This document shows, in pieces, positions 8,169 to 31,086 of a DNA stretch of 34,352 nucleotides (positions within the stretch are counted from its first letter, which is position 1; the number at the start of each line of letters is the position of its first letter). The position numbers were made by a program, and so were the translations under genes. Source of the DNA: Acidobacteriota bacterium (GTDB lineage: Bacteria > Acidobacteriota > Terriglobia > Bryobacterales > Bryobacteraceae); the NCBI GenBank assembly GCA_025354525.1, contig JANXMS010000112.1, forward strand, positions 1 through 34,352, in the 5' to 3' direction. The notes below the pieces were generated by a model. It did not search any database. It worked only from the letters and a program-made list of their open reading frames with translations, and had not been told where the DNA came from.

Positions 8169-10016
8169 ATGGCCTTTAACCCCGACAGTCCAATACCTAA
8201 CGAACCGGTTCCTGGTTCCGAATCCCGTCCAGGCCCTGGGCCTGCCACGACCTCAGATCTTCCAGGCCTTCCGCTCCCGGAAGTGGAAGTAGAAGAGGAA
8301 GAGACCTTCTCGATGGAAGATGTTCTCGCCAATGAGTCGCTCGAAGACTACGGCGATTTCTCGATTCCAACGGGTGGCGAAGTCTTACAAGGCTACGTCG
8401 TCAAGGTCACCGCCAACGAAGTTCTCGTAGATATCGGGGCCAAGTCGGAAGGCGCGGTACCCATCTCCCAGATTCCCACCGTTGACGGTAAAGTCACCCT
8501 CAAGCCTGGTGACACGCTCGAAGTGACTGTCGAGCGGGGTCAGCTAACTCCCGAAGGCTATGTCGTGCTCTCGCACCACAAGGCGTCGAACTCAAAGGCC
8601 TGGGATGCGCTCGAAGCCGCCCTCAACGCCAGTCAGGTAATCACGGGTAAAGTAACTGGACGGACGAAAGGCGGCCTGATGGTCGATGTCGGCGTCGAAG
8701 CGTTTATGCCCGGCTCTCAAGTTGATGTTCGCCCCGTGTACAACGTCGAAGCATTCGTCGGCCAAGATATTCCGGTCCGCGTCGTCAAACTCAATCGCCG
8801 TCGCGGAAACGTTGTCGTATCGCGCAAAATGGCGATCGAAGAAGACGTTATCGCCAAAAAGTCAGTCCTGCTCGATCAAGTCCACGAAGGCGGCGACATC
8901 CGCGGCATCGTTAAGAATCTCACTGAGTACGGTGCCTTCATAGATCTCGGCGGTATCGATGGTCTTCTTCACGTCAGCGACATGAGCCACGGACGGGTCA
9001 CCCATCCGAGTGAAGTTGTCCAGGTCGGCCAGGAACTCTCACTCCGCGTCTTGAAGTTTGATCGCGATAAAGAACGTATCTCTCTCGGCCTGAAGCAGAT
9101 GCTTCCGGACCCGTGGGAAACCGTCGTCGCCCGCTACCAACCCGGCACCAAAGTGCTCGGTCGAGTCGTCAGTGTAACCGACTACGGATCCTTCGTCGAA
9201 CTCGAAGCTGGCGTCGAAGGCCTGATCCATATCTCCGAAATGACGTGGTCGCGCCGCATGCGTCACCCGTCGAAAGTCGTTAAACCCGGCGATCCCGTCG
9301 AAAGCGTGGTCCTCGAAGTGAAGTCCCGCGAGCGCCGCATTTCGCTCGGCATTAAACAACTCGAAGCGGATCCCTGGACCACTGTCGCCGAACGCTACGC
9401 GATCGGCAGCGTCGTCGAAGGCCGCGTCCGCAAGCTCTCCGAATTCGGGGCGTTCATCGAGATCGAAGAAGGGATTGACGGCCTAGTGCACGTCTCTGAC
9501 CTCTCCTGGACCAAGCACGTAAAACACCCGTCCGACCTCCTCAAGAAAGGTCAAATCGTCCAAGCCGTTATCTTGCAAATCGACGCCCCTACCCGACGCC
9601 TTTCGCTCGGCATGAAGCAGCTACAGCCCGATGCCTGGGAAAGCTTCTTCCAGACGCATCAAGTTGGCGATCTTGTGAAGGGCAAGGTTTGTCGCGCCTC
9701 CACGTTTGGCATGTTCGTTGAAGTCGCGCCCGGTGTTGAGGCCCTCTGCCACAACTCGGAAGTGCCCGGCTTCCAACGCGGCCAGGATGGCAAATCGCCG
9801 GCTCTCCCCGTCAATGAAGAGTTCTCATTCAAGATCATTCGCCTGAATGTGGCCGAAAAGAAGATCGGACTCAGTCTGAAAGCAGCCGCTGAAGACGAAG
9901 AAAAATCCCGTTTGGCCGACTATCAGAAACAGGCTGCGGCGGCCACGACCACCATTGAAGAGGCGCTACGGAGTAATGAAGCCGCCCCCCCCCCCACGAC
10001 CGAGAGTGGCGAGTAG
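8169..10016 (+). CDS. rpsA: 30S ribosomal protein S1
   Basis: A 615-residue protein that helps the 30S subunit bind mRNA. After an acidic, proline-rich N-terminal extension of about 65 residues come six S1 (OB-fold) domains beginning near residues 70, 155, 240, 325, 410 and 495. Domains 3 to 5 are the best conserved (TEYGAFIDLGGIDGLLHVSD, DYGSFVELEAGVEGLIHISE, EFGAFIEIEEGIDGLVHVSD). The C-terminus is a short charged and alanine tail. ATG at 8169 follows GGAGA at 8159-8163. It is followed by an HU/IHF gene, the same order as rpsA-ihfB in E. coli. An 11-C run (9985-9995) lies near the 3' end, where slippage would change only the last few residues. Confidence 0.95.
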   Translation: MAFNPDSPIPNEPVPGSESRPGPGPATTSDLPGLPLPEVEVEEEETFSMEDVLANESLEDYGDFSIPTGGEVLQGYVVKVTANEVLVDIGAKSEGAVPISQIPTVDGKVTLKPGDTLEVTVERGQLTPEGYVVLSHHKASNSKAWDALEAALNASQVITGKVTGRTKGGLMVDVGVEAFMPGSQVDVRPVYNVEAFVGQDIPVRVVKLNRRRGNVVVSRKMAIEEDVIAKKSVLLDQVHEGGDIRGIVKNLTEYGAFIDLGGIDGLLHVSDMSHGRVTHPSEVVQVGQELSLRVLKFDRDKERISLGLKQMLPDPWETVVARYQPGTKVLGRVVSVTDYGSFVELEAGVEGLIHISEMTWSRRMRHPSKVVKPGDPVESVVLEVKSRERRISLGIKQLEADPWTTVAERYAIGSVVEGRVRKLSEFGAFIEIEEGIDGLVHVSDLSWTKHVKHPSDLLKKGQIVQAVILQIDAPTRRLSLGMKQLQPDAWESFFQTHQVGDLVKGKVCRASTFGMFVEVAPGVEALCHNSEVPGFQRGQDGKSPALPVNEEFSFKIIRLNVAEKKIGLSLKAAAEDEEKSRLADYQKQAAAATTTIEEALRSNEAAPPPTTESGE

Positions 10017-16758: not shown

Positions 16759-17472
16759 TTGCACCGCGAATCGCTCAAATGGTTTAGTCCTTCCCTCCAG
16801 CGGGAGATGGAAATGCTCATCTTCGGATCCGGAGGGCAGCCGCTCCTCGTCTTCCCCACTTCCATGGGCCGCTTCTTCGACTACGAACAGCGCGACATGA
16901 TCGCCGCCGCCGCCGGTGCCTACGAAGCCGGCGTCATCCAAGCCTTCTGTGTCGATAGCGTCGACTCCGAATCCTGGTACAACAAAGGCGTCCACCCCCG
17001 TGATCGCGTCCTCCGCCACGGCCAATACGAAGAATACCTTCTCCGCGAAGTTCTTCCGTTTATTCAAAAACGCAACCCGGCCCCCAAAGTCTTCCCCACC
17101 GGCTGCAGCTTCGGCGGTTTCCACGCCGCCAACTTCGCCCTTCGCCACCCGGACCATTGCAACGGCTTCTCCAGCTTCGGCGGAGCCTTCGACATTCACC
17201 AATTTGTCGACGGCTACTACGACGACAATGTCTATTTCAACTGCCCCCCGGATTTCCTCCCCAACCTCTCCGACCCCCGCGCGCTCAATCTCATGCGGCG
17301 TATGAAAATCGTCCTCGCCGCCGGAGAAGCCGATTTCTGTCGGCCGGAAAACGACCGCCTCAGCCGCATCCTCCATGCCAAACAAATCCCCCATACCCTC
17401 GACATCTGGGGCGACGGTGCCGGCCACGATTGGCCCGAGTGGCACGGCATGACTACCAAGTTTTTCGGCTAA
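16759..17472 (+). CDS. Esterase-like alpha/beta-hydrolase (COG4947 type), first gene of the amidoligase operon
   Basis: A 237-residue cytosolic protein without signal peptide. It has the nucleophile elbow GCSFGGFHA (Ser about 117), a likely acid in AGEADFCRPEND and a C-terminal histidine in GDGAGHDWPEW, so a catalytic triad is plausible. The opening WFSPSLQREMEMLIFGSGG matches the start of this family, so TTG at 16759 is favoured over ATG at 16807. It is followed after 10 bases by an ATP-grasp ligase and heads a six-gene run. It may release or load an ester or thioester intermediate, or clip a product (inference). Family members are usually annotated only as putative esterases. Confidence 0.8.
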   Translation: MHRESLKWFSPSLQREMEMLIFGSGGQPLLVFPTSMGRFFDYEQRDMIAAAAGAYEAGVIQAFCVDSVDSESWYNKGVHPRDRVLRHGQYEEYLLREVLPFIQKRNPAPKVFPTGCSFGGFHAANFALRHPDHCNGFSSFGGAFDIHQFVDGYYDDNVYFNCPPDFLPNLSDPRALNLMRRMKIVLAAGEADFCRPENDRLSRILHAKQIPHTLDIWGDGAGHDWPEWHGMTTKFFG

Positions 17473-17482
17473 ACTTTAGTCC

Positions 17483-18433
17483 ATGAAGCGAATAGGAATG
17501 AAGCGCATCGGAATTCTGTACGGCATGGAGACCACGTTTCCCCCCGCCCTCGTTGACCACATCAACGCTCGCGCCATCCCCGGTGTCGTCGCCGAGCACG
17601 TCAAAATCGGCGCGTTCAAAATGGCGGAGTCCTCAGGCTACGACGTCATTGTCGACCGCATCTCCCACGACATCCCCTTCTACCGCGCCTGGCTTAAAAA
17701 CGAGGCCCTCTGCGGGGCCCGCATCATCAACAACCCCTTCTGGTGGTCCGCCGACGACAAGTTCTTCAACTACGCCCTCGCCTCAAAAATGGGCGTAGCC
17801 ACCCCGCGCACCGTCATGCTCCCCCACAAGAGCCACCCCGAAGGAACCACCGCCCAGTCGATGCGCAATCTCCTATACCCGCTCAATTGGGAAGAGGTCT
17901 TCGCATACATCGGCTTCCCCGCCTTCCTCAAACCGCACTTGGGCGGCGGCTGGAAGTCCGTCTACAAGGTCGACAACCCCCAGGAACTCTACGACGCCTA
18001 CAACGAAACCGGCACCCTCGGCATGGTCCTACAATCGGAAGTCAACTTCGTCGAATACTTCCGCTGCTACGTCATCGGCCAGGAGAAGGTGCGCATCATG
18101 CCCTATGACCCCCGCCGCGCTCCCGCGCACCGCTACGTCCTCGACCCGCCCGCCTACGACCCCGCCCTCCTCGCCCGCGTCGAAGCCGACGCCCTCAAGC
18201 TCTGCCGAGCCCTCGGCTACGACCTCAACACCGTCGAATTTGCCGTCGAAAACGGCATCCCCTACGCCATCGATTTCCTCAATCCAGCCCCCGACGCCGA
18301 CGTCAACTCCGTCGGCCAGGAAAACTTTGATTGGGTCATCAGCGCCGTCGCCGATCTCGCCATCAAACGCGCCCTCGACGACGCAAACCCCAACGTCGAC
18401 TATCGCTGGAACCGCTACCTCGCCGGAGCCTAA
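17483..18433 (+). CDS. ATP-grasp ligase (RimK/D-Ala-D-Ala ligase-like)
   Basis: A protein of 311 to 316 residues. ATP-grasp enzymes activate a carboxylate as acyl phosphate and join it to an amine or thiol. Visible parts are the N-terminal pre-ATP domain, the loop FPAFLKPHLGGGWKSVYKV (lysine and glycine-rich loop), VEYFRCYVIGQEKVRIMPYD, and the metal-binding end VEFAVENGIPYAIDFLNPAP with acidic and Asn ligands. The N-terminus has a 15-bp near-duplication (17483-17512) that encodes MKRIG twice, so either ATG 17483 or ATG 17498 may be used. It lies between the esterase and the GCS2 ligase with gaps of 10 and 6 bases. Confidence 0.85.
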   Translation: MKRIGMKRIGILYGMETTFPPALVDHINARAIPGVVAEHVKIGAFKMAESSGYDVIVDRISHDIPFYRAWLKNEALCGARIINNPFWWSADDKFFNYALASKMGVATPRTVMLPHKSHPEGTTAQSMRNLLYPLNWEEVFAYIGFPAFLKPHLGGGWKSVYKVDNPQELYDAYNETGTLGMVLQSEVNFVEYFRCYVIGQEKVRIMPYDPRRAPAHRYVLDPPAYDPALLARVEADALKLCRALGYDLNTVEFAVENGIPYAIDFLNPAPDADVNSVGQENFDWVISAVADLAIKRALDDANPNVDYRWNRYLAGA

Positions 18434-18439
18434 CGCAAC

Positions 18440-19579
18440 ATGAAGCCCGCCCTTTCCATCGGCATCGAAGAAGAGTTCCAAACCATCGACCCCGAAACCC
18501 GCGATCTCCGCTCGCATATCGAAAGCGAACTCTACAACGAAGGCCGCCTCATCCTCCGTGAACGCGTTAAGCAAGAGATGCACCAGTCCGTCTTCGAAGT
18601 CGGCACCTCCATCTGCGCCAACATGCAGGAAGCCGAACACGAAGTCAAACTCATCCGCGCCAACATGGTCCACTTGGCGAGCAAAAACGGCCTCCTTCTC
18701 GCCGCCTCCGCCACCCATCCCTTCGCTGACTGGCGCGACCAAAGCATCCATCCCGACGCCCGATACGAAACCATCGTCGAGGATATGCAAATCGTCGCCC
18801 GCGCCAATCTCATCTTCGGCCTCCACGTCCACATCGGCATCGCCGACCTCGAAACCGCCATCCACATCATGAACGCGGCTCGCTACTTCCTGCCGCACAT
18901 CCTCGCCCTTTCCACCAACTCCCCCTTCTGGCGCGGCATGAACACCGGCCTCAAAAGCTACCGCTGCAAAGTCTTCGACAAGTTCCCTCGCACCAACATC
19001 CCGGACTACTTCTCCAGCGCCCAGGAGTACCAAAGCTACGTCGCCCTTCTCGTCTCCACCGGCTGCATCGACAATGCCAAAAAAATCTGGTGGGACATCC
19101 GCCCCCATCCCGTCTTCCCTACTCTCGAATTCCGCATCTGCGACCTCCCCCTCCGCGCCGACGAAACCCTCGCCATCGCCGCTCTGATCCAAGCAACCGT
19201 CGCCAAACTCTACCAGCTTCACTCCCGCAACCAGACCTTCCGCCTCTACCGCCAAGGCCTCATGATGGAGAACAAATGGCGCGCCCTCCGCTACGGCATC
19301 GACGGTAAACTCATAGATTTCGGCAAGGGCATCGAGGTCCCCTTCAAAGACCTCATGTATGAGTACCTCGAACTCATCGACGATGTCGTTGACGAACTCG
19401 GCTCCCGTCACTACATCAACTACATCCACACCATCCTGGCCAATGGCACCGGCGCCGACCGCCAACTCCGCGTCTGGAACCAAACCCAGGACTTCGTCAA
19501 AGTCGTCGATTTCATCGTCGACGAAACCAAAGCCAACGTCGGTGAACCCGGCCCCCTCGAGTTCAAAAGCGCGTCTTAA
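18440..19579 (+). CDS. Carboxylate-amine ligase, glutamate-cysteine ligase type 2 (GCS2/YbdK) family
   Basis: A 379-residue enzyme of the glutamine-synthetase-like ligase fold. It has the N-terminal acidic motif GIEEEFQTID (residues 8-17), the GLHVHIGI strand near 128, and TLEFRICDLPLRADE near 232, matching the metal and substrate residues of YbdK/EgtA-like proteins. Family members ligate the gamma-carboxyl of glutamate (or another acid) to an amine such as cysteine using ATP. Which substrate this one uses cannot be read. ATG at 18440 is six bases after the ATP-grasp stop. The next gene follows one base after its stop. Confidence 0.87.
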   Translation: MKPALSIGIEEEFQTIDPETRDLRSHIESELYNEGRLILRERVKQEMHQSVFEVGTSICANMQEAEHEVKLIRANMVHLASKNGLLLAASATHPFADWRDQSIHPDARYETIVEDMQIVARANLIFGLHVHIGIADLETAIHIMNAARYFLPHILALSTNSPFWRGMNTGLKSYRCKVFDKFPRTNIPDYFSSAQEYQSYVALLVSTGCIDNAKKIWWDIRPHPVFPTLEFRICDLPLRADETLAIAALIQATVAKLYQLHSRNQTFRLYRQGLMMENKWRALRYGIDGKLIDFGKGIEVPFKDLMYEYLELIDDVVDELGSRHYINYIHTILANGTGADRQLRVWNQTQDFVKVVDFIVDETKANVGEPGPLEFKSAS

Positions 19580-19580
19580 A

Positions 19581-20597
19581 ATGCCACTTCCTCTTCACTT
19601 CGATCCCGCCCTCAGCCAAGGTGCCCGCAACGCCGTCCGCACCTGTCTCCGCATTGAAGCCAGCCACCGAGTCACCGTCATCACCGATCACGAATCGGCT
19701 GAAATCGCCGCCGCCATCGCCGCCGAACTCACCGCCATTGACGTTGATTTCCGCGTCTGGATCCTTGAAGAAGAAGGGGCCCGGCCTCTCATTGACATGC
19801 CCCCCGTCGTCCTCAACGACCTCGAAACCGCCGACGTCTCCATCTTCTGCGCCCAAGCCCAAATCGGCGAACTCCGCTCCCGCATGCAGATGACCGAAAT
19901 CGTCAACCGCCGCTTCATCAAGCATGCCCACATGGTGAATATCACCAAGGAAATCATGCTCCACGGCATGCGCGCTGATTACGACGCCGTCGACCGCCTC
20001 AGCCTCAAACTCCTCGAAATGGCCACGAAAGCCAGGCAGGTCACCGCCACCACCCCGGCCGGCACCCGCATCGTCGCCGACCTCTCGCCCGGCTACCAGT
20101 GGCTCAAAACCTCCGGCATCATCAGCGCTAAGACCTGGGGCAATCTCCCCGGCGGCGAGGTCTGGACCACCCCCGGGGAAGTCAACGGCGTCTACGTCGT
20201 CGATGGCGTCGTCGGCGACTATCTCTGCGCCAAGTACGGCGACCTCCAAGCCACCCCGCTCACGATCACCGTCGTCGCCACCCGCCTCCATTCGGTCTCC
20301 TGCGCGAACAAAGAACTCGAACGCGAATTCTGGGAATACACCCACACCGATGAGAACAGCGACCGCGTCGGCGAGTTCGCCATCGGCACCAACATCGGCG
20401 TCCACGACGTCATCGGCAACATCCTCCAAGACGAAAAACTCCCCGGCATGCACATCGCCTTCGGCCACCCCTACGGCGACCACACCGGAGCCCAATGGAC
20501 CTCGAAAACCCACATCGACGTCGTCGGGCGCAAGTTTGATATCTGGCTCGACGACATCCAAATCATGCGGGCCGGAGAGTTCCTGGTGACTGCGTGA
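19581..20597 (+). CDS. M29-family (aminopeptidase T/AmpS-like) metallopeptidase
   Basis: A 338-residue protein. The C-terminal half has the M29 metal-site pattern: a glutamate in VGEFAIGTN, HIAFGHPYGDHTG, and the final KTHIDVVGRKFDIWLD. These supply Glu, His and Asp ligands for two metal ions. The N-terminal half is the smaller substrate-gating domain. ATG at 19581 immediately follows the ligase stop. The end shares GTGA with the next gene. Within an operon of peptide-bond-forming enzymes, a dedicated aminopeptidase could trim or recycle the product, or may have lost peptidase activity and act on another amide (inference). Confidence 0.8.
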   Translation: MPLPLHFDPALSQGARNAVRTCLRIEASHRVTVITDHESAEIAAAIAAELTAIDVDFRVWILEEEGARPLIDMPPVVLNDLETADVSIFCAQAQIGELRSRMQMTEIVNRRFIKHAHMVNITKEIMLHGMRADYDAVDRLSLKLLEMATKARQVTATTPAGTRIVADLSPGYQWLKTSGIISAKTWGNLPGGEVWTTPGEVNGVYVVDGVVGDYLCAKYGDLQATPLTITVVATRLHSVSCANKELEREFWEYTHTDENSDRVGEFAIGTNIGVHDVIGNILQDEKLPGMHIAFGHPYGDHTGAQWTSKTHIDVVGRKFDIWLDDIQIMRAGEFLVTA

Positions 20598-21763
20598 TCA
20601 AGGCTGCTCGTAAAGCCTTCAATCAAAATTGGCGACCGGCCGACTACACCCGCTTGTTAGACCGCCTCACCGACGCCTGCGGCGAGCCCATCCCCTTCCG
20701 CATCTGCGAAACGCCCTGCTTCCTCCGCACCTCGCTCGTCAACAAACTCATCACTTCCGGCGCTGATCTCATCCGCCAACTCGCTGAAAGCCCTGACTAC
20801 CGCGCCGCCTCGGAAGCCGCCATTCCGCCGCTCTACCGCGTCCCGAACGAACCCCATCAACCTCTCTTCACCCAGGTCGATTTCGGCCTCGTCCGAAACG
20901 CCGCAGGCAAAGCCGAACCCAAGCTTGTCGAGATCCAGGGCTTCCCTTCCCTCTACGCTTTCCATGCCGTTCTATCCGCCGCATATGACCACCCCGGATT
21001 CTGGCGCTATCATCCCGCGCCGCTGAGTCCCGCTGGGTATTGGGATCTCCTGGGCCAAACGATTGTCGGCGACCACCATCCCGAAAACGTCGTACTTTTA
21101 GAGATAGACCCCACCCACCAAAAAACCCGCTGCGACTTCGTCATGACGGAAGACGAATTTGAAGTCGCGACCGTCTGCATCACCCACCTGCATCGCAAAG
21201 GCAACAAGCTCTTCTATGAGCGCAACGGTCAAATCATTCCCATCCACCGCATCTACAACCGCACCATCGTCGACGAACTCGAACGCCGCCAAATCAACGC
21301 CCCCTTCGACTGGCGCGACGAACTCGACGTCGAATGGGCCGGCCATCCCAACCACTATTTCCGCTTCAGCAAGTTCTCCCTCCCCTTCCTCCGCCACGCT
21401 TCGGTCCCCCAAACTTTCTTCCTCGATCGCGTTTCCCCGCTCCCCGCCGACCTCGACCGTTGGGTGCTTAAACCCCTCTTCTCCTTCGCTGGCCTAGGCG
21501 TCCGCGTCGGCCCCACGCGGGCCGAAATCGAAGCCATTCCGACCGCCGAACGAAGCCAATGGATTCTGCAGGAACGCTGCGATTTCCATCCATTCTTTGA
21601 GACCCCCGCCGGCCCCACCAAAGCCGAAATCCGCGTCATGTTCATCGGTCAAAAAGCCGTCGGCCTGCTCGTTAGAATGGGCCGAGGAGCGATGATGGGG
21701 GTAGACCAGAACAAGGGCCAGGAATGGGTCGGCGCCTCCTCCGCGCTATGGCCCGACGAGTAA
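20594..21763 (+). CDS. Second ATP-grasp-like ligase
   Basis: A 389-residue protein that starts at GTG overlapping the M29 stop by four bases. Its ATP-grasp signature is in the C-terminal third: WVLKPLFSFAGLGVRVGPTR (Lys plus glycine-rich loop), WILQERCDFHPFF, then KAEIRVMFIGQKAVGLLVRM and MGVDQNKGQEWVGAS with acidic and Asn residues. The N-terminal half (VEIQGFPSLYAFHAVL) resembles glutathionylspermidine-synthase-like or other uncharacterised ATP-grasps only weakly. It is not a paralogue of the first ATP-grasp by eye, so the two likely catalyse different couplings. Confidence 0.7.
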   Translation: MIKAARKAFNQNWRPADYTRLLDRLTDACGEPIPFRICETPCFLRTSLVNKLITSGADLIRQLAESPDYRAASEAAIPPLYRVPNEPHQPLFTQVDFGLVRNAAGKAEPKLVEIQGFPSLYAFHAVLSAAYDHPGFWRYHPAPLSPAGYWDLLGQTIVGDHHPENVVLLEIDPTHQKTRCDFVMTEDEFEVATVCITHLHRKGNKLFYERNGQIIPIHRIYNRTIVDELERRQINAPFDWRDELDVEWAGHPNHYFRFSKFSLPFLRHASVPQTFFLDRVSPLPADLDRWVLKPLFSFAGLGVRVGPTRAEIEAIPTAERSQWILQERCDFHPFFETPAGPTKAEIRVMFIGQKAVGLLVRMGRGAMMGVDQNKGQEWVGASSALWPDE

Positions 21764-21766
21764 CCA

Positions 21767-22612
21767 GTGGAAACCCTCGAATCCAGAATCAAGACCGTCC
21801 TGCCGCCTCAGTATCAGGATTGCTACGAAGCCGTTCAGCCCGTCTCCATGGGCTCCGTCGGCCTTAAGTACGGCCCTGACGGCCAGGTAGCCTGGAATGA
21901 AATATGGGGATCGTTCTGCGACCTCGCCATGGCCGGCGGCCCGCCTCACAAAGGCACCCTTCTCCTCCCCGGAACCGAATCAGATCCTAAGGTAGTGGCC
22001 GAAATCTGTCGCGGCATCCGAATGGTGACCGGCCTGACGGCCGATGAATCTCCGACCCCGGGCTGGGTCCGCGTCGGTTGCGAAACCTCTACGATGGCCG
22101 ACTGGCTCTGCCGCGCCATCAACATGGAAAACGTCTCCGCCCGCTGCGAAGACTCCATCCTCGAACTCCCCGCCGGCCCCGCCTATCGCCTAGAAAAAGA
22201 GATCAAGAACGTCATCACCGTTATCGCGAAAACCTGCCACTACTGGGTCGAGCACATGTGGACTTCCCAACAGCGGGAAATCGCCACGCTCTTCAAAAAG
22301 CTATCCGAAGACTTCCCCCTCCTCCAGCCTATTCCTGGTGACGGCTCCGTCATCTCCGCGGCAATCCACCAAGCCACGGGCATGCAATCGACTAACCACC
22401 ACTACCCCGGCTGGCTAGGCTTCACCTGCCCCGACGTCCCCACGGCCATCTGGATGATGCGAGCCCTCGTCGTCAGCAACGTTCTCGCCCGCCGCGAGGA
22501 CACCGCCCTATTCGTCCCCGTCCATCCCAATTCCGCAGCCGTCAGCAACACGGTCGTTCAGATTCACGCCCTCGCCCGGGATCACTTCGCGAAGCTTCAA
22601 TTACAAAGTTAG
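21767..22612 (+). CDS. Protein of unknown function with a two-fold internal repeat, last gene of the operon
   Basis: A 281-residue soluble protein starting at GTG three bases after the ATP-grasp stop. I do not recognise the family. Residues about 85-160 and 200-275 are clearly related: IRMVTGL...PTPGWVRVGC...DWLCRA...NVSARCED...LPAGPAY against IHQATGM...YPGWLGFTC...IWMMRALVV..VLARREDTALFVPVHPN. Shared positions are the P-G-W, a Cys three to four residues later, W..RA, N-V-x-AR-x-ED and a proline turn. It may therefore be a fold duplication with two equivalent sites, or a pseudo-dimer. The duplicated DNA just downstream copies its second half. Confidence 0.75.
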   Translation: METLESRIKTVLPPQYQDCYEAVQPVSMGSVGLKYGPDGQVAWNEIWGSFCDLAMAGGPPHKGTLLLPGTESDPKVVAEICRGIRMVTGLTADESPTPGWVRVGCETSTMADWLCRAINMENVSARCEDSILELPAGPAYRLEKEIKNVITVIAKTCHYWVEHMWTSQQREIATLFKKLSEDFPLLQPIPGDGSVISAAIHQATGMQSTNHHYPGWLGFTCPDVPTAIWMMRALVVSNVLARREDTALFVPVHPNSAAVSNTVVQIHALARDHFAKLQLQS

Positions 22613-22861
22613 GCGTGGGAGCCGAAACGATCCGCTTTAGGACCCATTCACCAAAGCCATCCACCAAGCCACGGGCCTGCAATCGACTAATCACCACTAT
22701 AGGCTTCAACTGCCCCGACGTCCCCACGGCCATCTGGATGATGCGAGCCCTCGTCGTCAGCAACGTCCTCGCCCGCCGCGAGGACACCGCCCTATTCGTC
22801 CCCGTCCATCCCAACTCCGAAGCCGTCAGCAACACGGTCGTTCAGATTCACTGCCTCGCCC
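22364..22861 (+). repeat. Tandem partial duplication of the operon's last gene
   Basis: Bases 22364-22577 (second repeat domain of the upstream gene) reappear at 22659-22861 with few substitutions. The second copy lacks 11 bases after CACTA (around 22700), so its frame differs. It follows the true stop at 22612 and has no credible start, so it is probably not translated. The near-identity over about 200 bases shows that the duplication is recent. Confidence 0.9.
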
Positions 22862-29529: not shown

Positions 29530-31086
29530 ATGTCGCCCATGCGCATCGGCCTTCTTCTTCTCTTCGCGACCCTCGCCTCCGCCCAACCCAAACCCGTCAT
29601 CGGTCTCGGCGGCATCGTCCACGAAACGAACACCTTCAACCCAAAGAAGACAACTCTCGCCGATTTCTCCACCGGCATCGGAGGTGCCGACGGAACCCTC
29701 CGCGGCCAGGATCTCATCACCAATTCCATCAAGGCCAACAACACCACCGCCGGCTTCATCCACGGAGCCAACCAATACGGCTTGACCCTCTACCCCACCC
29801 TGGTTGCCGGCCCCCAAACCCTCGGCACCGTTCTCGATTCCGCCTTCGAAACCCTGACAAAGGAGCTCATAGACCGCCTCCGCCAAGCCCCTAAGCTCGA
29901 TGGCATTCTCCTCTTCCTCCACGGCACCATGGTCACTGAAAGCTATCCCCACGCCGACGCCGAAGTCGTCCGCCGCGTCCGCCAAGCCTTCGGCAGCGAC
30001 ATCCCCATCGTCGTCGTCCATGACTTCCACGCCAACATCTCCGAAGAAATCGTCAAACTAACCACCGTCCTCCTCGGCTACAAAGAATGCCCCCATCTCG
30101 ACGCCCGCGACGCCGGCGTCCACGCCGCCCGCATCATGGCCGACATCGTCTCCGGCAAAGTCAAACCCGTCCAGGTTCTCGTCAAGCCCCCGATGCTCCT
30201 GAACATTCTCTTTCATAACACCTATGCCGCCCCCCTCAAGCCCATCACTGACGCCAGCAAGTTACTCGAAAAGAGTCCGAAGATACTTGCCGCCACTGTC
30301 GCCGGCGGCTATCAATACGCCGACATCCCCGCCATGGGCCCCAGCGTCGTCGTCGTTACAGACAACGACCCCGCCCTCGCCAAACGTGAAGCCGAACGCC
30401 TCGGAGCCATGCTCTGGGGGATCCGCGATCAACTCCAACTGAGGGCCCCGAACGCCGCCGAAGCAGTGCGCTTAGCCATGACCAACGGCCAATGGCCCGT
30501 AGCCCTGATGGACGCCGGAGATAACATCGGCGGAGGATCCGCCGGCGACAGCACCTTTGTCCTTGCCGAACTAATGAAGCAGAAAGCCGAAGGCTGGGTT
30601 GTCGTCATCTCCGATCCGTCCGCCGTCCAAGCCGCCATCCGTTCCGGAGTCGGCAGCGCTTTTGACATGCCGGTCGGCGGCAAAACCGACAACCTCCATG
30701 GCGATTCCATCCGAGTCAAAGGTCGAGTCAAAGGCATCCACGACGGCCGCTTCGTTGAAACCGCCGTCCGCCACGGAGGCGGCCGTTACTGGGACATGGG
30801 AGTCTCGGTGGTCATTGAGGTGGAGGGTTCCACCCCCGACATGCCCAACTTACTCTTACTCACGCCCAAGCGAATCATCCCCTTCAGCCTGAATCAATTG
30901 ATCAGCGTCGGCATCTACCCCGAGCGAATGAAGATCCTGGTCGCCAAAGGAACCATCGCCCCACGAGCCGCTTACGAGGGCGTAGCGGCCAAAATCATTG
31001 AAGTCGACTCCGGCGGGGTAACCGCGGTCAACCCCGCCCGTTTCGACTATAAACACATTCGCCCAAACCTATTCGGAGTGAAGTAA
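29530..31086 (+). CDS. M81-family metallopeptidase (MlrC-like)
   Basis: A 518-residue protein of the microcystinase C family, zinc enzymes that cleave linear microcystin fragments in sphingomonads; most members have unknown substrates. Visible motifs are GLGGIVHETNTFNPKKTTLA (metal His), LDGILLFLHGTMVTESYPHADA, VVVHDFHANIS, ALMDAGDNIGGGSAGDSTF and the C-terminal TAVNPARFDYKHIRPNLF. An N-terminal signal peptide (MRIGLLLLFATLASAQ) is present if translation starts at the inner ATG (29539); ATG 29530 is nine bases earlier. Neither has a good ribosome binding site. It is followed by two S41-like peptidase genes, suggesting a peptide-degradation locus. Confidence 0.85.
   Translation: MSPMRIGLLLLFATLASAQPKPVIGLGGIVHETNTFNPKKTTLADFSTGIGGADGTLRGQDLITNSIKANNTTAGFIHGANQYGLTLYPTLVAGPQTLGTVLDSAFETLTKELIDRLRQAPKLDGILLFLHGTMVTESYPHADAEVVRRVRQAFGSDIPIVVVHDFHANISEEIVKLTTVLLGYKECPHLDARDAGVHAARIMADIVSGKVKPVQVLVKPPMLLNILFHNTYAAPLKPITDASKLLEKSPKILAATVAGGYQYADIPAMGPSVVVVTDNDPALAKREAERLGAMLWGIRDQLQLRAPNAAEAVRLAMTNGQWPVALMDAGDNIGGGSAGDSTFVLAELMKQKAEGWVVVISDPSAVQAAIRSGVGSAFDMPVGGKTDNLHGDSIRVKGRVKGIHDGRFVETAVRHGGGRYWDMGVSVVIEVEGSTPDMPNLLLLTPKRIIPFSLNQLISVGIYPERMKILVAKGTIAPRAAYEGVAAKIIEVDSGGVTAVNPARFDYKHIRPNLFGVK

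Follow-up and report, generated by a model that had tools for sequence, protein, structure and literature searches.

Glutathionylspermidine metabolism is laid out as a synthetase together with an amidase. The same pairing, with separate domains for synthesis and hydrolysis, is set out for trypanothione (PMC2784880). Here we describe a gene cassette of comparable plan in a 34,352 nt stretch of Acidobacteriota DNA (the window), corresponding to contig C476 in a genome of 7.3 Mb and 633 contigs. Six plus-strand open reading frames (ORFs), P1 to P6, follow one another closely (Table 1), and the first five encode an esterase, an ATP-grasp ligase, a GCS2-type ligase, an M29-type metallopeptidase and a second ATP-grasp ligase. 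These five genes are the conserved unit, and P6 is a separate gene that stands behind P5 here. We consider the chances evenly balanced that P1–P5 constitute a cytoplasmic pathway, independent of nonribosomal peptide synthetases (NRPSs), for a small peptide-like metabolite.

Comparison with described ligase–hydrolase systems

The cassette resembles the route to glutathionylspermidine and trypanothione (GshA, GshB and GspS with its amidase) in that amide ligases would act in sequence, the last of them an ATP-grasp of the P5 fold, and are paired with a hydrolase able to undo the bond. It differs in that P3 is a GCS2 protein and no GshB (TIGR01380) match was found in the genome. Moreover, the hydrolase of the cassette is an M29 or a glutamine amidotransferase (GATase)-like protein and not an amidase domain as in GspSA. 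Since P2 lies far under the cut-off of RimK, its best NCBIfam match (TIGR00768, 23.7 versus 143.4 bits), and P5 lies under that of PF03738 (16.1 versus 29.3 bits), the resemblance is one of plan and not of membership. On the same score P2 was rejected as a member of the RimK family. The Escherichia coli peptidylpolyamine synthetases YgiC and YjfC share 15–16% identity with P5, and the YgiC sequence match is sub-threshold. Among the matches listed in a literature search, which covered the titles and abstract openings of open-licence papers, none describes the P1–P5 gene set.

Operons that combine ATP-grasp and glutamine-synthetase-like ligases with unrelated peptidases were reportedly predicted by Iyer et al. 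in 2009 and share with our locus the linkage of ligases to peptidases. This known idea, together with the RimK match of P2, would suit a protein or peptide tagging system in which a protein tail receives residues from the RimK-like P2 and from P3, is lengthened by P5 and is taken off again by P4. We regard tagging as unlikely, since P5 has the predicted fold of small-molecule ligases and no gene for a target protein was recognized among the recurrent neighbours of the cassette, a set inspected visually on approximate gene calls. Neither a carrier protein, an NRPS nor a transporter was recognized among these neighbours, in agreement with what had been predicted from the window for carriers and NRPSs.

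Gene order and co-inheritance of P1 to P5

In other genomes of the same family, P1-P2-P3-P4-P5 occur in this order and on one strand in 10 loci (L049–L058); no gap exceeds 87 bases apart from one of 1.3 kb between P4 and P5 in L056. A scan of genome contigs with P2 gave at least 573 relatives, of which the best 80 were used, so that the sample is biased to close ones. The loci are counted as rows and not as species, since some contigs appear under two names (L057 and L100 are one such pair). The complete ordered set sits on a single strand in 27 of the 80, P2 is alone in 10, P1-P2 are present in eight and other subsets, in order, in 33. Order or strand is broken in L147 and L114. Since 27/80 loci are complete and ordered and only 2/80 break order or strand, the arrangement of P1–P5 is conserved across relatives far beyond chance. 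Many of the 80 loci are cut by contig ends; among the 42 that extend 3 kb or more ahead of P2 and 7.5 kb or more beyond it, P1 was present in 28, P3 in 30, P4 in 27 and P5 in 24. Full five-gene sets are also found in Opitutia (L140) and Ignavibacteriales (L149), and P1-P2-P3-P5 without P4 in L139, L142, L151 and L153. Deeper in the Acidobacteriota, P1 is often reverse-oriented (L187, L188, L190, L194 and L195).

The spaces between and around the genes bear on another reading, namely a graspetide-like pathway for a ribosomally synthesized and post-translationally modified peptide (RiPP) with its own ribosomal precursor. ATP-grasp ligases and peptidases are known to co-occur in such clusters, and a similar stretch of 30–49 codons precedes P5 in L096, L103 and L127. 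In 56 loci, however, neither the gaps longer than 70 bases nor the flanking 800 bases contained a widely recurring short ORF; upstream matches corresponded to a divergent esterase gene (P0, described below) and its other frames, and those downstream, each confined to three to five loci, to regulators, kinases or an aldo/keto reductase. The gaps in the window are 10 bases or less. A RiPP pathway appears most improbable.

Two loci, L059 and L132, contain P1 and P2 only; the catalytic triad of P1 is lost and the glycine loop of P2 is changed, and we read them as probable remnants of a decaying cassette. Their interpretation as a separate system was rejected because the catalytic residues are gone. 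An aldo/keto reductase gene, its family assigned from a scan of the L084 copy, follows P4 in L084, L113, L114, L117, L128 and L135, and in some of these loci lies between P4 and P5.

Co-occurrence was counted in one and the same set of 396 Acidobacteriota genomes, with no account taken of shared ancestry. P2 (E below 1e-90) was present in 109, P3 (E ≤ 1e-100) in 123, P4 (E ≤ 1e-60) in 31 and P5 (E ≤ 1e-20) in 48. At E ≤ 0.001, P2 was found in 241 genomes, and the 132 with E above 1e-90 were left out of the P2 count. By pattern, 43 genomes have P2 and P3, 35 have P3 only, 27 have all four of P2–P5, 18 have P2 only, 16 have P2, P3 and P5, eight have other combinations and 249 have none. The genes are nested: P4 is found almost only with P5 (28/31) and P5 almost only with P2 (45/48), and P2 occurs with P3 in 88 of 109 genomes. 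P2 and P3 are taken as the core because they are found together most widely. In the 45 genomes with both P2 and P5, the two genes lie within 15 kb of each other in 26, further apart on one contig in nine and on different contigs in 10, although some of these ten split pairs may be assembly breaks. Since pairs are also found far apart or on different contigs, the association of P2 with P5 is more than physical linkage. In 12 genomes chosen from the loci of the P2 scan, P5 was present in 11, already within the locus in eight and elsewhere in three (L121, L144 and L136); among the twelve it was absent from the genome of L150. The same 12 genomes gave a close P4 in four and a distant M29 protein in four more. 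The frequency of the ligases in the sampled Acidobacteriota (P2 with P3 in 88/396, P2 with P5 in 45/396), and their occurrence in other phyla, suggest that soil bacteria make a metabolite not yet described.

Twenty-one Acidobacteriota genomes (for example G298, G378 and G428) contain P2-like proteins of lower similarity (E 1e-41 to 1e-53). Their open frames are longer, at 415–484 amino acids, and in G298 a P3 homologue is located some 2.3 kb away from one of them; they possibly represent a sister system.

Catalytic residues and the proposed pathway

The original prediction had assigned each of P1 to P5 to an enzyme class and raised the question of whether the ligase sites were degenerate. In the wide alignments, from which incomplete proteins were dropped beforehand and in which rows were counted even where they share a contig, the sites of all three ligases proved to be conserved. 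P3 passes the cut-offs of both PF04107 (230.1 versus 21 bits) and NF010039 (527.4 versus 371 bits), which confirms it as a GCS2/YbdK-type ligase, and is the sole PF04107 match in the genome of the window. Twelve of 13 columns tested, including Glu, His and Arg residues, are conserved in 87/87 rows and W217 in 86/87; the columns were taken from the first alignment and catalytic roles are not assigned per residue. P2 reaches no family cut-off, but its profile matches solved structures of biotin carboxylase and D-Ala-D-Ala ligase significantly (E 1.4e-6), in accordance with its assignment as an ATP-grasp, and residues K88, K145, E247, D259 and N262 are each present in 124/124 rows.

P5, predicted as a second and unrelated-looking ATP-grasp, likewise reaches no family cut-off. 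The structure model of P5 gave a full-length match to the glutathione-synthetase/YgiC fold, so the predicted fold is that of glutathione synthetase, GspS and YgiC. K293 and R347 are conserved in 67/67 rows and E345 in 66/67. A sequence search of the PDB returned two primase chains, which we take as chance matches, and YgiC below threshold (E 1.4). In an Ignavibacteriae metagenome-assembled genome (MAG), a P5-like part lies in frame with a Peptidase_M3 (oligopeptidase F) domain (L131:1241-4198). The P5 part stops at model position 365 of 396 and deviates at E113, D227, K260, E345 and R361. With its C-terminus and conserved residues missing, this fusion was given little weight as a peptidase swap; it comes from a single MAG contig and may be decay or an artefact.

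The assignment of P1 as an esterase held, with PF00756 just reached (22.0 bits against a cut-off of 22, borderline; two relatives score 30.5 and 39) and with a Ser-Asp-His triad conserved in most rows (Ser117 in 75/78, Asp192 in 72/78, His223 in 76/78), which we assigned by position and take to be catalytic. Its profile weakly matches an S-formylglutathione hydrolase at E 2.8e-4, a match that ranks ninth among 12, behind other esterases. Together with the GCS2 ligase, the glutathione-synthetase fold of P5 and the lack of a GshB match in the genome, this would fit a low-molecular-weight thiol, a glutathione analogue whose synthesis would involve P3 as the Cys ligase together with P2 and P5, P1 acting as the esterase for S-acyl thiols. 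Against this, the genome encodes a BshC relative, so that bacillithiol is likely made and a glutathione-like thiol is hardly needed; no thiol-using enzyme was recognized among the recurrent neighbours, and the occurrence of the cassette is patchy (P2 in 109/396 genomes). We judge the thiol reading distinctly unlikely.

Among 79 P1 loci, 21 have a second PF00756 esterase gene, P0, divergent from P1 at a distance of 51–549 bases; L140 (Opitutia), L151 (Arcicella), L113 and L105 belong to these. P0 was not found in the window in a search with three P0 sequences. The presence of two esterases and a peptidase, and the lack of a recognizable transporter among recurrent neighbours, could be understood as salvage or detoxification, in which acquired esters and peptides would be degraded by the hydrolases P1 and P4, their products being rebuilt or conjugated by the ligases. 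With three ligases, and with P4 nearly confined to genomes that have P5, synthesis fits better, and salvage seems improbable to us.

P4 passes the PF02073 (M29) cut-off (44.3 versus 27 bits), as expected from its earlier reading as an M29 metallopeptidase. It keeps six residues (Glu, Glu, Glu, His, His and Asp) that we take to be the M29 metal ligands, four in 67/67 rows and two in 66/67 with one gap, and aligns with AmpS (1zjc) at three glutamates and one histidine. A NicX-type dioxygenase of the M29 fold was rejected as an identity for P4, which keeps E193 where NicX has Phe. In seven loci, a protein of about 290–360 residues adjoins P3 in the place of P4: L060, L189, L190, L191 and L195 of the Acidobacteriota, L151 of Arcicella rosea and L150, where the copy ends at the contig edge. 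All seven align with common Cys-His-Ser and His-Pro-Glu motifs, and P4 is present in none of the seven loci. The Arcicella protein matches the PF00117 GATase family (25.7 versus 22.8 bits), and the two Acidobacteriota copies scanned matched no Pfam family. The exchange of one amide hydrolase for another in the P4 slot would fit these observations.

The sequences establish the gene set, its order, its co-inheritance and the conserved catalytic residues, and modelling predicts the fold of P5; the reaction order, the substrates, the roles of P1 and of the hydrolase and the cytoplasmic location of the P1–P5 pathway are inferred. P3 and P2 would form the first two amide bonds from amino acids by way of acyl phosphates, in the manner of GshA and GshB though with other enzymes, the likeliest product being, possibly, a gamma-glutamyl dipeptide with a third residue. 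P5 would then activate the free carboxylate of the peptide as an acyl phosphate and add an amine or amino acid, so extending or capping it. P4, or the GATase-like cysteine protein in some other lineages, may cleave an amide bond in the product so as to trim or recycle it, like the amidase domain of trypanothione synthetase-amidase, and the serine esterase P1 may act on an ester or thioester form. The small dedicated amide or peptide pathway of the original prediction is supported by three co-inherited ligases with conserved sites, often accompanied by a hydrolase, and P6 falls outside it.

Rather tentatively, P1–P5 could also be viewed as an independent counterpart of the glutathione-to-glutathionylspermidine route with interchangeable hydrolases (M29 or GATase-like cysteine protein), leading to a new peptide-amide metabolite in Acidobacteriota, Ignavibacteria, Bacteroidota and Opitutia. 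Within this same tentative reading P2 would be a new ATP-grasp family and P5 a new glutathione-synthetase-fold family that caps the peptide. If so, different enzymes would have been assembled to the same plan as in the glutathionylspermidine route. P2 and P5 are unnamed families in the libraries searched, P5 with a strong fold prediction, and the named carriers Bryocella elongata (L105) and Arcicella rosea (L151) make the reading testable.

Several observations weigh against the proposed P1–P5 pathway. Some members, as had been envisaged, do occur independently: of the 109 genomes with P2, 18 have none of P3, P4 and P5, and of the 123 with P3, 35 have none of the other three. The nesting of P4 has exceptions in G205 and G408 (P2 and P3, no P5), G081 (P2 only) and G211 (P5 only, and thus included in the count with P5). 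Distances among P1–P5 correlate at 0.83–0.90 over 42 loci (35 for P4), two near-identical P2 loci having been dropped from 44, but with no housekeeping control these values may reflect only species descent. The hydrolase is inconstant: P2, P3 and P5 occur without P4 in 16 genomes, and in stretches fetched from 12 of these the GATase-like gene was seen in five and not in the other seven. Furthermore, the GATase-like protein could instead supply ammonia to a ligase. The gamma-glutamyl product is a guess taken from the GCS2 family of P3, and the BshC relative mentioned above also counts against the pathway. The active-site columns were mostly preselected as invariant in the first alignments, so that their conservation is partly by choice. 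Finally, P5 departs in part from Cp1B, a fungal ATP-grasp of E-64 synthesis that acts from trans-epoxysuccinate and whose acyl-phosphate residues are given as Arg-x-Asp and Glu-x-Asn (PMC12568646). By motif correspondence only, Asp96 (67/67) and Glu113 (66/67) of P5 are kept; two of the four residues are not, Gln replacing Arg at position 94 in 47/67 rows and Asn at position 115 in 67/67.

P6 and other features of the window

The coordinates of all six plus-strand ORFs were reproduced, with intergenic gaps of 10, 6, 1, −4 and 3 bases from P1 to P6 as originally described. The ORF of P2 opens with a repeated MKRIG, and relatives align from the second of these, probably the true start; in this alignment the window sequence was entered from that copy and the starts of the relatives were picked by script. 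The ATG of P4 sits within a longer listed ORF.

The six genes had been predicted to form one operon, and in this respect the prediction failed: a six-gene unit was rejected because P6 is mostly found without P2 and away from the cassette. At E ≤ 0.001 in 61 related genomes, P6 was present in 15, P5 in 14 and P2 in 16. Only three of the 15 genomes with P6, some of which are incomplete drafts, also have P2 (G000, G006 and G014), on a different contig in the case of G014; the remaining 12 lack it. Ten P6 loci of 8–12 kb were fetched, and all ten have P6 without P1–P5; no shared neighbour gene was recognized around P6 in these loci. In the window P6 begins about 10 residues later than in eight of nine aligned relatives, whose starts were script-picked. 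Considering the P6 loci without P1–P5 beside the cassette loci, the duplicate of its 3' part (Table 1) and the later start, we infer that P6 moved behind P5 recently.

P6 was described from the window as an internally repeated protein of no known family, and this description stands, with no family match in library scans and a structure model of two similar alpha/beta repeats. A Foldseek search with the model (pLDDT 79) gave no match at E ≤ 0.001; its weak matches were mostly to pyridoxal phosphate (PLP) enzymes, with a TM score of about 0.2.

Table 1. Features of the cassette region, in window coordinates
Feature	Position	Strand	Evidence
P1, alpha/beta-hydrolase esterase, PF00756-like, 237 aa, TTG start	16759..17472	+	triad Ser117-Asp192-His223
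P2, ATP-grasp ligase 1, distant relative of RimK, Ddl and biotin carboxylase	17498..18433 (ORF from 17483)	+	profile match, alignment of relatives
P3, GCS2/YbdK-type carboxylate-amine ligase, NF010039	18440..19579	+	family scores, conserved columns
P4, M29-type metallopeptidase, putative metal ligands E193, E265, E285, H291, H311 and D313	19581..20597	+	PF02073, alignment
P5, ATP-grasp ligase 2, glutathione-synthetase/GspS/YgiC fold	20594..21763	+	predicted fold; 4-base overlap with P4
P6, duplicated alpha/beta protein, no known family, outside the conserved cassette	21767..22612	+	model, loci of relatives
Partial copy of the P6 3' part (source 22361-22577)	22656..22861	+	90.8% identity with gaps; match also at protein level

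Elsewhere in the window, positions 29530–31086 encode an M81-family (MlrC-like) protein (PF07364, 280 bits), and positions 8169–10016 encode a ribosomal protein S1-like protein of 615 amino acids with six S1 domain matches.

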